DNA of 47,590 nucleotides from an uncultured Desulfovibrio sp. (GTDB lineage Bacteria > Desulfobacterota > Desulfovibrionia > Desulfovibrionales > Desulfovibrionaceae). The translations under genes were made by a program, and so were the position numbers. The stretch is from assembly GCA_947038175.1 (NCBI GenBank), contig CAMQVJ010000014.1, positions 1 to 47,590 of the forward strand, read 5' to 3'. Under the pieces are notes generated by a model. That model was not told where the DNA came from. It worked only from the letters and a program-made list of their open reading frames with translations, and searched no databases. Every line of letters begins with the position of its first letter. The first letter of the stretch is position 1. Positions 16,694 to 42,700 of the stretch are shown here, one piece after another.

Positions 16694-16720
16694 TCATATT
16701 TATTCATATTCATTATAAAA

Positions 16721-17078
16721 TGAGTTGGGCGTAAGCCGGGTTTTGTTCATCATAAATGACGTGACTGTCATTCCTCTAGGAGTATCGTTACCGATACCCT
16801 CAAGCAACCTACCCAGGAACCTAAGATCGGGCCGATCGATTCCTCTATTTGGTCTTGCTTCGGACGGGGCTTGCCTAGCTTACTACGTCACCGTAATAAC
16901 TGGTGGGCTCTTACCCCACCGTTTCACCCTTACCCAAAATGCCTAAGCATAATGGGCGGTTTACTTTCTGTTGCGCTTGCCAAAGATCGCTCTTCCTGGG
17001 AGTTACCCAGCGTCATGCCCTGTGAAGCCCGGACTTTCCTCTCCGTAATAAATACGCAGCGACAGTCTGCCCAACTCA
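16721..17078 (-). ncRNA. rnpB: RNase P RNA, bacterial class A
   Basis: On the minus strand the RNA begins and ends with complementary GAGTTGGGC and GCCCAACTC (P1). It contains the universally conserved GAGAGGAAAGTCCGGGCT (near 17027-17044), CACAGGGCATGACGCTGGGTA, AGGGTGAAACGGTGGGGTAAGAGCCC, and near the 3' end the AAACCCGGCTTACG segment that pairs back to form P4. The order and the 358-nucleotide length fit class A RNase P RNA, which matures tRNA 5' ends. Ends are set by P1 pairing and could shift a few bases. Confidence 0.96.
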
Positions 17079-20520: not shown

Positions 20521-20664
20521 ACTTAGAGTTTACGTGTATTTTCTCAAGTATTTTAAAAACTAAGAATTTCTGTAGATTTCAATAAAAATACTGTGTCAGT
20601 AAACCCGGTAATATTAACTTATTACACACGGTGAAGGATTAATGTTTTTTCAGGAAGGGGGTCT

Positions 20665-20789
20665 GGGGGAAAACTCATTTTTTTCAAAAAAATGGGGTTT
20701 CCCTCAGAAAAACATCTATTTCATAAAAAATGGAGTTTTCCTCAGAAAAACATCTATTTCATAAAAAATGGAGTTTTCCTCAGAAAAAC
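20665..20789. repeat. 38-base tandem repeats between convergent genes
   Basis: Two full copies start at 20703 and 20741, and an 11-base partial copy starts at 20779. The unit runs from CTCAGAAAAACATC to AATGGAGTTTTC. Before them lies a degenerate copy that is itself a hairpin: CATTTTTTT-C-AAAAAAATG at 20676-20694, extended by GGGAAA and TTTCCC. The array sits 6 bases before the end of the leftward pmtA-like gene. Confidence 0.85.
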
Positions 20790-21488: not shown

Positions 21489-21938
21489 ACTTAATATATT
21501 GAAATATATGTCTATATCTCAGTTTAATCCTTGATTTTTAATCTAGTAGAGGCATATTCTATGAGCGTTATAACCAATAAAACGCAGTAAGGCAAATAAA
21601 ATAAATTGTTATATTGCGTAGCTATCACGTCATTCCAATTTGTGAGGCTCTTTCTCTCATATTGCTCTCTATGTTTTAGCTGCCCCTGTGTGTATTGACT
21701 CTTTTATCCTAAACGGAAAAGACACGTTGCCCGTCGGTGACTGCCAATCTCATATTTTAGTGTTTTTTGTAAACTTTGTTTACAAAAAACACATATGTGG
21801 GGGTTTGCCTACCCAAAGGGCGACACCGTCGTTTACGTTTACGAGGCACGAGTAAATACGTAAATAGAGAGCTCAGATGGGGAGTTGAACTCCCCCAAAA
21901 AAAGTAAATTGTTGTATTCTGTCACTATTTCACTTCGT
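21489..21938. other. Intergenic region carrying repeat element copy A
   Basis: This 450-base gap upstream of the pmtA-like gene and downstream of tyrA contains no credible gene. Most of it (21627-21910) is occupied by a hairpin-rich repeat element shared with other gaps in the window. Confidence 0.6.
21627..21910 (+). repeat. Intergenic hairpin element, copy A
   Basis: It opens with ACGTCATTCCAATTTG, the terminal sequence shared with copy E. From about 21736 it matches copy B for about 170 bases. Landmarks are a 15-base perfect hairpin with TTT loop (GTGTTTTTTGTAAAC, 21760-21792), GTGGGGGTTTGCCTACCC, GGGCGACACCGTCG, TTTACGTTTACGAGGCACGA, and the stem GGGGAGTT-G-AACTCCCC at 21879-21895, followed by A-rich sequence. 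The right terminal repeat is eroded. Confidence 0.8.
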
Positions 21939-31598: not shown

Positions 31599-32053
31599 GT
31601 TTTCTCCGCTATTATCAACGCTTATTATTCTAAATGATTAGAATAACCCTTACCTTCTATTATGAATTAATATTTTCCAAAATACAAGTTTAATATGAGT
31701 ATTACATATTTCCAACTCACGTCATTCCAATTTGAGGGGAAAAACCATGTTTTTGCACTCTATTTACGTGAATTTCTGAAGAACTAACGAAAATGACGAT
31801 GTCACCCCTTGGATAGGAAACTCCCCCCTTTTTCTTTAAAGACATTTCAACAATTCAGGTTTTTAACCTATTGATATGAAAAGTTTTGTGGGGGAGAGCT
31901 CGAGAGGGGAGAACTTTTTCAAAAGTTCCCACTCTCGAAAAAATTACTAAATTAGAATGACGTATTATTTCCAAAGTTTGACCTTTTATAAGGCTATACA
32001 ATTTTTAGAATTTATGAGAATATTGCGTTAAACAAGGAAAATGAGAGGGTATT
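31599..32053. other. Intergenic region carrying repeat element copy E
   Basis: The 455-base gap between the divergent tag and smr-like genes has no credible gene. It contains copy E (31719-31963). To its right, before GAGAGGG at 32042, lies AT-rich promoter-like sequence for the smr-like gene. Confidence 0.6.
31719..31963 (+). repeat. MITE-like intergenic element with terminal inverted repeats, copy E
   Basis: The ends are ACGTCATTCCAATTT (31719-31733) and AAATTAGAATGACGT (31949-31963), complementary at 14 of 15 positions. Inside, GTGGGGGAGAGCTCGAGAGG leads into an imperfect 17-base hairpin (CGAGAG...CTCTCG, 31901-31937) followed by six A, parallel to copies A and B. TATTTCCAA occurs on both flanks (31707-31715 and 31966-31974), a possible 9-base target duplication set 2-3 bases off the ends. 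No coding capacity. Confidence 0.7.
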
Positions 32054-35491: not shown

Positions 35492-35613
35492 AATTAAAAT
35501 ATGACAGGTTTATATATTTCCCTAAGCTAAAGGAAACAACTTCTATCAAAGAACTTATACCCTTGCTTTGCTATAGCTATACTTGTAAACACAAATGGCT
35601 ACTCCGCTAGTAG

Positions 35614-35795
35614 GGTAACTGGCAGTCTCATGTTTTAGTATTTTTTAAACTTTGTTTATAAAATACTAAATGTGGGGGTTTGCCTACCCCAAGGGCGACA
35701 CCGTCGTTTACGTTTACGAGGCACGAGTAAATATGTAAATAGAGAGCTCAGATGGGGAGTTCAACTCCCCCAAAAAAGTTAATTTAAATGACGTA
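35614..35795 (+). repeat. Intergenic hairpin element, copy B
   Basis: It matches copy A from GGGTAACTGGCAGTCTCAT through GTGGGGGTTTGCCTACCCC, GGGCGACACCGTCG, TTTACGTTTACGAGGCACGA and AGAGAGCTCAGATGGGGAG to the stem GGGGAGTT-C-AACTCCCC (35754-35770). Its right end, AATTTAAATGACGTA, resembles the terminal repeat of copy E. Its left terminal repeat is missing. The large hairpin differs from copy A in sequence but still pairs. Confidence 0.8.
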
Positions 35796-39493: not shown

Positions 39494-39600
39494 TTTTTCC
39501 TCCGAGAATAAATAGGTATCTCATCTCGCAACATTAATGGTTATTGTAGAAAATATTCAATAGTGAAAGTTTTTATTTTATAAACGACTCTATAACAATT

Positions 39601-39720
39601 CATTCCAAGTTGAGAGGTTTTATCTCTCACGTTGCTCTTTATTTCCTCACACCTTGTTACAAGAAACACTCAATGTGGGGGGTTGGGGGAGTTCAACTCC
39701 CCCAAAAAAAAGCAAATTAG
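39601..39720 (+). repeat. Intergenic hairpin element, short relic D
   Basis: It begins CATTCCAAGTTGAGAGG, like the left end of copy A. It keeps TCTCTCACGTTGCTCTTTAT, also shared with A, then jumps to TGTGGGGGGTTGGGGGAG and the 11-base stem TTGGGGGAGTT-C-AACTCCCCCAA (39683-39705), followed by A-rich sequence and AAATTAG. The middle of A is deleted. It sits between the pyc stop and the pps start. Confidence 0.72.
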
Positions 39721-39727
39721 ATACACC

Positions 39728-42700
39728 CTACAACAATTCGGTGATTTTTGTTCCACAATAAGGGCAAAAACTCGCATTGTTGACAGAAAGAGGCTTCGCA
39801 CATTTCTTATTTGGACAAATAAGAGGGATATCATCAATTGCCATGATGAGTTCACCTTCGTGTACGGGTATCATTTTTCTTGTGTTTTTATAGTCAGCCA
39901 GTTTGAAAATGTGAGTAATTATACTGTCTCTTGGTGCAAGAACGGCTTTTTCTTGTTTCATGATAGAAATATTAAAGAGCTCTTGACCTTGTTTGACAAT
40001 ATCGCCAACTTTTACATAAGTAACCCAAAGATCACCACTAGAAGGCGCACCAATTTCATTTTCGTTCTCAGGATCCGCTATGGAAATGTCTGTGGCGCTT
40101 ATACCTCTTGGGTTAGCCACTTTAATTTCATGGGTCATTGCTTGTGAATCAAACCCGTAACGAACTTCTACTATGCCACGTTCATTAGGGGCGCTAATGC
40201 TATAAATAGTGACTTGGTGTGGCTTTCCACCTTCATCAGTGAAGTGCAATTCTCTTCCTGGTTCAAGGCCTTCAAACCAAACATCAAGGGGAAGCATATT
40301 AGGGTCACCAAATTTGTCTTGGAATTGCATGGTCTTAATCGCATCACCAGGGTGATTTAAGTACATGATAAATTCTTCATCAGTTGGTTCACGTTTGATA
40401 ATATCAACACATTTATATTCTTCTGCAACAACATCAGCAGGGCTTAGGTTATCAAGCGGGGAACAATCTGTTCTTTCCGCAATAGCACTTTCCCACTTTT
40501 TGCCAAAGGCACTTTCGTAAACCCAATCAGCAGGGAAGCCGAGAGGAAGTTTACCAAATTTACCAAGCAAGAGATTTCTAAACGCGTCATTACAATCTTG
40601 ATAAAGGGATAATCTGTCTTTTTGTAACTGAGCATCGTGTTTCTTTTCAGGTGTATTTGTCACGTCATCAAGGATTTTCAAAAGCTTAGTTACAGCTTTC
40701 ATTTCTCCACGTTTCCATGCGCCTGTTACAGCAAGAAAAGCAGTATTCCAGGTTATTTGTGAACCAGGAGTAACATCATGATAACGCACAACTTGACGTG
40801 TGCCTGCAAGAAAACGGAGCATATACGGCAAAAGGTGAATATAACCTTGTTTCATTGCTCCTTCCTGAGAGGAAGATGTTGCGCCACCAGGCATGCAATG
40901 ATGAACAACGTCATGGTCAATTCCTTGGAAATACGGTGCACAATAGCGATCGTAATACGGCATTATTTGTTTGATAACAAAGTTTGCTTCACGAATCATA
41001 TCTTTATTGATAACCGTTTCAAGTCCCATTTCGCCTTCAAGGAATGCTGCCGTTGAAAGCACATCGCCTTGACCATAACTACGCACAGCAGCTCCAAGAC
41101 CAACATCAAGGATATGAGCACCCGCTTTCGCCGCTTCACATACAGAAGGAACAAAAAGTCCGTCTGTATAATGGCGATGACAATGCAAAACAAGATTAGG
41201 CCATTTCTTACGAAGAGCGCTTACAAGATCTCTCATGAAGCGAGGAGGGCAAATGCCAGCCATATCTTTTAAGCCTAAAATAATGGAAGACGCTGCTTTT
41301 TTCTCATCGCATCCAAGAATAGAAGAAACCATTTGCAAGGTTTGTTTCGCCACATCAATATAATGGTCAATATCAAAACCTTTAGAAATAGACAACGATA
41401 AAGCAGGCTCGAAAATAACTTCTTTTCTATTGAGGATAACTTCTGCTAATGGGCGCATATTACGCATGTCATTAAGGAAGTCAAAACAACGAATAACATG
41501 ATAATCATCACAAATCATTTCGCAAGTAAGTTGCATAAGATTGCGAGGTTGTGGAGAATAACCAAGGACATTGGTTGAACGCACGAGTATTTGCTTCATT
41601 GTTTTTGGTGCAAGACTATTCCATGTCTTTGCTTCCGTGAATGGGTAGGTCATATTCGCCATCATCGCAACGTGGAAATGCGCACCACCACCATTCTCAA
41701 GGGAGAAAAATTGGCAATTATCAAGGTAAGGAGCAAGAAGCTTATCTTCTGACAAGCGAAAGCGGTTACCGCTGTTTGACTGCGTTAAATCTCGAGTTGT
41801 GGTATCGGTAAAGTGAATTTTATTGGAATCACGAACATAATCTAATACTGCGTCTCGGTCACCAGAAGGGTAAACATTCGCTTCATGGCGTATGCTCTTT
41901 GGGATTTTAGGCAGAACGGGTTCAAATGTAGGCATGCGAGGAGTATCAATAGAACGATACTTTCCTAGCTGTACATATGGGTTATAGCCCTTTGCGGATA
42001 TTTCTGCTAAAAGATGACAGAGGCGTTCTGCTTCAGGAGCAAGATCTTGGTAATGCATGAGTTGTGGATTTTTTTCAATAAATGTTGTGTTAAAATCCGC
42101 ATTACAAAACTGATCATTTTTTAAAATATGACGGAAAAAAGGTATAGTCGTCTTTACACCCGTGATGGTATATTCATCAAGCGCACGACCCATAACGCTG
42201 CGTACTTTACCCCAACCACGACCATAAGATATGAGCAAAGAGCCCGCAGAGTCATAGTTTGAAGGGAAATCATAACCAGCAGAAAGGTTTGAGTCGATAC
42301 GGATACCAGGACCACCAGGAGAAACATATCTTGTTATACGAGCAGCATTTGGGGCAAAGCCTTTTTGAGGGTCTTCACAGTTGATGCGAACTTGCATAGC
42401 AGAAAGGTGACCTTTTGTGGTCTCACTATTCAAGGACAGAGGAACACCAAAAGCCAAGGCAATTTGTGTTTCAACAAGGTCAAGACCATAGCGGCATTCT
42501 GTGATACCATGCTCTACTTGCAGTCTTGTATTGACTTCAATAAGATAAGGAACGCCTTCTTCAGTAACTAAAAATTCAACAGTGCAAAGAGAGTGATAAT
42601 TCACAGCTTCTGCAAGGCGACAAGAATAGTCCTTCAATTGCGTTCTTAGCTCTTCAGTCATACCAATCCAAGGGGATGGTGTGATTTCAATAAGCTTTTG

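Follow-up and report, generated by a model that had tools for sequence, protein, structure and literature searches.

Covariation is widely accepted as strong evidence for a functional RNA fold. In a 47,590-nucleotide contig from an uncultured Desulfovibrio sp. (NCBI GenBank assembly GCA_947038175.1, contig CAMQVJ010000014.1; hereafter the window; it forms contig C14 of a draft assembly of 2.73 Mb and 149 contigs), a first-pass annotation made from the sequence alone had picked out two long intergenic repeats with compensatory base changes and suggested that their folded form matters, either as an RNA or as a DNA hairpin for a transposase. Here we ask what these repeats are and what keeps their arms paired.

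The two repeats and the elements that contain them

Alignment of positions 21736–21910 (copy A) with 35614–35784 (copy B) gave 90% identity, in keeping with the likeness first judged by eye, and both copies lie on the plus strand, as described. The two-sided stem change that drew attention to the locus was confirmed (GTGTT..AACAC in one copy, GTATT..AATAC in the other), the gamma stem does keep its pairing through a G.T pair (CGTAAA versus TGTAAA), and CGAC-ACC-GTCG and GTGGGGGTTTGCCTACCC are indeed identical in the two copies. Copies A and B folded with z-scores of −3.6 and −3.3, each better than 200/200 dinucleotide shuffles. Two features had been overlooked: the last (beta) hairpin has a loop that is inverted between the copies (GGGGAGT-TGA-ACTCCCC in A, GGGGAGT-TCA-ACTCCCC in B), and the element extends 5′ of the start first assigned to it. 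The repeats are thus where they were reported to be, but there are far more than two, and the stretches described cover only part of a larger unit, namely its centre and 3′ half.

The whole element is an imperfect palindrome of ~200–320 bp with terminal inverted repeats (TIRs; ACGTnATTCCAATTT). In copies A and B the right part recurs on the left in inverted, diverged form, and a covariance model of the family also matches on the minus strand (21656–21796, E 3e-9, in copy A; 35540–35672, E 5e-4, in copy B). Copy A is self-complementary over 21692–21859 (67%, E 3e-16); single-stranded DNA folding gave z-scores of −5.6 for copy A in full and −6.2 for the intact copy L092. The two ends carry ACGTnATTCCAATTT in inverted orientation; a search for this pattern (16 bases, one mismatch tolerated) gave 24 matches in this genome versus one for a reversed control, and one match in 58 other genomes of the bacterial family. 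These TIR pairs are a hallmark of MITEs, as is being short, non-coding, multi-copy and intergenic: 27 of 30 copies are free of overlap with any open reading frame of ≥100 amino acids.

Four elements of the family lie in the window:

21627..21936, plus strand: copy A, whole element; the stretch first reported is its centre and 3′ half
21760..21792, no strand assigned: central hairpin C of copy A, perfect 15 bp stem, loop TTT
21832..21864, plus strand: gamma2 hairpin of copy A, TTTACGTTTACGAGGCACGAGTAAATACGTAAA
21879..21895, no strand assigned: beta hairpin of copy A, loop TGA, inverted relative to copy B
31707..31715 and 31966..31974, plus strand: left and right 9-bp direct repeats of the third element, TATTTCCAA
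31719..31963, no strand assigned: third element, both TIRs intact, inner modules different
35540..35794, plus strand: copy B, whole element, left end approximate
35634..35670, no strand assigned: central hairpin C of copy B
35781–35794: 3′ TIR of copy B, AATTTAAATGACGT
39590..39601, plus strand: left direct repeat of the fourth element, CTATAACAATTC
39602..39727, no strand assigned: fourth element, between two minus-strand genes; only a short spacer there in relatives
39728..39739, plus strand: right direct repeat of the fourth element, CTACAACAATTC, 11/12 matching

Copy A runs from a TIR through alpha, an inverted gamma, central hairpin C, D, a CGAC/GTCG piece, gamma2 and beta to a decayed 3′ TIR (module order T a <g2 C D k g2 b); its 5′ TIR, ACGTCATTCCAATTT, is exact, while its 3′ TIR is degenerate and the right boundary approximate. 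The third element was matched by the covariance model at 31747–31854 on the minus strand (E 6e-6).

The window also holds a class A RNase P RNA (16717–17078, minus strand) and an inverted repeat with 23-bp arms, TCTGGGGGAAAACTCATTTTTTT, at 20662–20708; hairpins of the latter class were seen upstream of elements at L002 and L003 too.

Copy number and distribution

BLAST found 63 matches in this genome, and a covariance model built from 22 copies found 140 at E ≤ 0.001, a figure that includes some elements counted on both strands because the copies are palindromic. Five congeners together yielded 11 covariance-model matches, seven in G004 and four in G001, with none in G002, G003 or G005, and a search of 68 other genomes of the bacterial family gave a match in G004 only. 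The G001 matches that we inspected are laid out alike, running from the central hairpin through CCACCCAAAGGGCGAC, a gamma-type hairpin and GGACAGCA to a beta-type hairpin and its A run, with different stem sequences and a different end (TTAGGGTrTGTTT). In G004, at least two matches have the CCCAAAGGGCGAC-gamma-beta part in common with the family; another, L227, looks like a chance match within coding sequence. The family is nearly confined to one species.

No match to the element was found in the phage and plasmid collections searched, nor in exact-pattern scans of genome-contig and viral-contig collections, which perhaps did not cover the nearest records. The PEP synthase encoded in the window shares 81–83% identity with proteins of Mailhella, Desulfovibrio sp. 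UBA8003 and other Desulfovibrionaceae; UBA8003 is a member of Taurinivorans muris (PMC10507020), which makes an animal-gut relative of Taurinivorans the probable source of the genome.

A hairpin module, CCAAAGG-n9-CCTTTGGAAAC, was seen more widely, in 10 of 44 sampled Desulfovibrionaceae genera with zero control matches (G010, G012, G046, G068 and others), often as GCCTCCGGCGGCCAAAGG.. within intergenic DNA. In G010 its stem is fixed and its 3-base loop highly variable.

Covariation and its cause

Conservation of paired bases, first proposed from two copies, proved both real and general, far exceeding shuffled and slid controls in the 22-copy covariance alignment (A1). There, 92.6% of cells are paired and 11 of 29 pairs show two-sided changes; 32 cells carry such changes, versus 9.5 ± 3.2 in shuffles (0/500 reach it) and 1–8 in slid versions. 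Gamma pair 4/30, for example, is A-T in 23, G-C in 13, C-G in three and something else in four, and B pair 8/16 is A-T in 15 and G-C in seven.

A structured RNA, with copies transcribed as small RNAs or within the 3′ ends of mRNAs and the fold under selection, would account for this covariation, for the folding scores of copies A and B and for the position of 27 of 30 copies between tandem or convergent genes. Selection on one RNA strand would be expected to tolerate G.U far better than A.C. That strand-specific tolerance was not seen: broken pairs were G.T in 61 cases and A.C in 51 (p 0.40; centre 19:15, gamma 17:9, B 2:2, alpha 15:13, beta 8:12), counts that are descriptive, as the copies are related and pattern-based selection of hairpins favours paired ones, and whose strand is less certain for the near-symmetric alpha and B. 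The slight excess of G.T in gamma is weak (p 0.17) and leaves room for some RNA-level constraint.

Loops, moreover, are found inverted, also in the central hairpin, where copies of fixed orientation have TTT in 24 cases and AAA in eight, and entire hairpins have been exchanged for unrelated ones. An Rfam search of the window returned RNase P only, leaving copies A and B without a family; promoter-like sites at the element were not above chance. An intrinsic terminator was considered for copies A and B and rejected, no GC-rich hairpin followed by a T run being found. A strand-specific RNA is unlikely because G.T and A.C breaks are about equal and hairpin loops occur inverted.

Template switching is reported to homogenise the arms of inverted repeats and to invert their spacers (PMC8604942), and compensatory changes are reported to arise from one template-switch event (PMC8794818). 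In the beta hairpin, two neighbouring pairs have been altered together. Homogenised arms, inverted loops and paired changes in clusters are what template switching is reported to leave behind; maintenance of the arms at the DNA level is therefore the favoured cause of the covariation. Selection for a foldable DNA strand during transposition, likewise strand-symmetric, would also fit.

Modular architecture

About ten hairpin modules were recognised, each in either orientation:

alpha: GAGAGGC TTT GCCTCTC
beta: GGGGAGTTCAACTCCCC or GGGGAAATCATTTCCCC
B: CCAAAGGACATGATGTCCTTTGG
others: three unrelated gamma hairpins, centre C, D and the CGAC/GTCG piece

A census of about 210 kb of genome segments found 41 arrays of at least four modules in 35 orders with strand counted, although truly different orders are fewer, as the 35 include truncated arrays and opposite-strand readings.

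Several variants were seen beside the full-length layout. The A run that follows the beta hairpin towards the 3′ end has in places grown into A-rich tandem repeats, (CAAAAAA)n or (GAAAATAAAAAAA)n (L002, L027, L031, L034 and others). A shorter sub-element of about 110 bp (D, CGAC/GTCG, gamma2, beta) occurs at L013, L014, L015, L016, L019 and L022; its copies all begin near TGTGGGGG and are 89–96% identical, and it is perhaps a unit that spreads separately. At L037 a different repeat, GCATGCCTTCGGCGACAAAAGGGGTGACCCCTTTTGAAACCC, stands on both sides of the element.

Insertion sites and transposases

Direct repeats beside TIR pairs scored 2.28 on average, versus 0.93 ± 0.26 for re-paired flanks (0/200 shuffles reach it), in a test set that includes some redundant or doubtful TIR pairs with a diluting effect. 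They flank many of the copies whose ends are both intact. Their length is not fixed (8–12 bp), and many copies have none; no clear direct repeats were found at the flanks of copies A and B. Clear examples are TATTTCCAA around 31719–31963 and CTAyAACAATTC around 39602–39727 in the window, and elsewhere AACAAAAAAG (L021), ACATTACA (L092) and TCyTGCAAA (L081).

The fourth element provides one orthologous site in relatives without the insert: the window has 234 bp ahead of the PEP synthase gene, against a far shorter spacer, without the element, in the relatives at L181, L183 and L121. Downstream of the prephenate dehydrogenase gene beside copy A, congeners G003 and G005 are also without the element, although gene order differs there.

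The gene context of 30 copies was tandem in 16 cases, convergent in 11 and divergent in three. The excess of convergent over divergent sites (p 0.057) would suit a DNA structure useful to the host, for instance a cruciform, or a spacer between gene 3′ ends to which proteins bind, as would the occurrence of hairpin B in 10 of 44 genera. Neutral insertions that avoid promoters yield the same bias, however, and the near-limitation of the family to one species and the orthologous site without the element speak against a host role, which we consider very unlikely.

The hairpins might instead be recognised in single-stranded DNA by a transposase of the Y1 (RAYT-like) type, as in REP/REPIN or IS200/IS605-type elements. 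The hairpins are many, their compensatory changes resemble those of REPINs (PMC3116915), and congener G003 has Y1 genes. Yet the three carriers of the family (this genome, G001 and G004) gave no Y1_Tnp match in a PF01797 search in which control genomes did, and G003, rich in Y1 genes, is without the element. Nor is Y1 transposition, by the IS200/IS605 mechanism, expected to give TIRs or direct repeats of 8–12 bp. REPIN membership fails because the Y1 transposase is missing, and we judge a Y1-type origin to be quite improbable.

Profile searches of the 149-contig draft for IS4 (PF01609), IS256 (PF00872) and Y1 (PF01797) transposases found none; a search with PF06782 was uninformative, as its controls gave no match. 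No TIR pair around a transposase was seen in this draft genome, an assembly that may miss an IS. One TIR pair 1.77 kb apart, on contig C5, was examined as an autonomous copy and rejected, the open reading frame inside being exonuclease-like (by eye) and not a transposase.

Discussion

The repeats are probably copies of a non-autonomous, modular, palindromic, MITE-like DNA element with exchangeable hairpins and short TIRs, inserted in intergenic DNA. This reading draws on high copy number, palindromy, TIRs, flanking direct repeats, a single site empty in relatives, shuffled modules, strand-unbiased covariation and inverted loops. Of the roles first offered for the fold, one in DNA fits better than one in RNA; a hairpin-reading Y1 transposase, with no Y1_Tnp gene found in the carrier genomes, is not supported. 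An RNA function for individual transcribed copies is possible and is not needed to explain the data; a structured RNA as the explanation of the whole family strikes us as unlikely.

Such an element would insert into intergenic DNA with duplication of about 8–12 bp of target, the duplications being made by a transposase that was presumably supplied in trans and may be missing from the assembly, unrecognised or lost. Template switching between the inverted arms during replication would probably keep them complementary at the DNA level, one arm being copied onto the other while the loop may invert; selection for a foldable single strand may perhaps have helped. Because no transposase was identified and the duplication length is not fixed, we do not file the element as a proven MITE.

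The element is a species-expanded variant of an already known, MITE/BOX-like kind. The BOX elements of Streptococcus pneumoniae are short, intergenic, high-copy and base-paired, consist of named modules (boxA/boxB/boxC) and have been proposed as MITEs (PMC3049150). Compared by organisation, our family resembles them in all these respects; but BOX varies chiefly in the number of boxB, whereas here about ten hairpin types appear, swap and invert in many orders, and ISSpn2 has been proposed to mobilise BOX, whereas here no candidate IS was found. AT-richness, TIRs, folding, probable target-site duplications and a lack of coding capacity are shared with bacterial MITEs such as Nezha, RUP and Correia elements, which differ in that our family has nested hairpins on both arms, extensive module exchange and no recognised parent IS. 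Like REP/REPIN sequences (PMC3116915), the elements are palindromes outside genes whose arms show compensatory changes; unlike REP/REPINs with their RAYTs, they are much longer, have TIRs and direct repeats and occur in carriers without a Y1 transposase. Template-switch (quasipalindrome) mutation, in which arms are homogenised and loops inverted in a single event (PMC8604942, PMC8794818), offers a further parallel, although it is a mutation process rather than an element, one that we propose to explain the covariation.

More tentatively, and with rather less than even confidence, we suggest that the family evolves by swapping and inversion of whole hairpins, probably through template switching, so as to display strong RNA-like covariation without RNA function, and that its layout outlasts its sequence across species. 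A repeat family with more than 100 matches in one genome here combines strong covariation with three signs that it arose in DNA: its mismatches are strand-symmetric, its loops occur inverted and its hairpins have been swapped. Such a family could provide natural material for testing how RNA selection can be told from template switching, and it illustrates the diversification of modular MITE-like elements, both inside one genome and across a genus.
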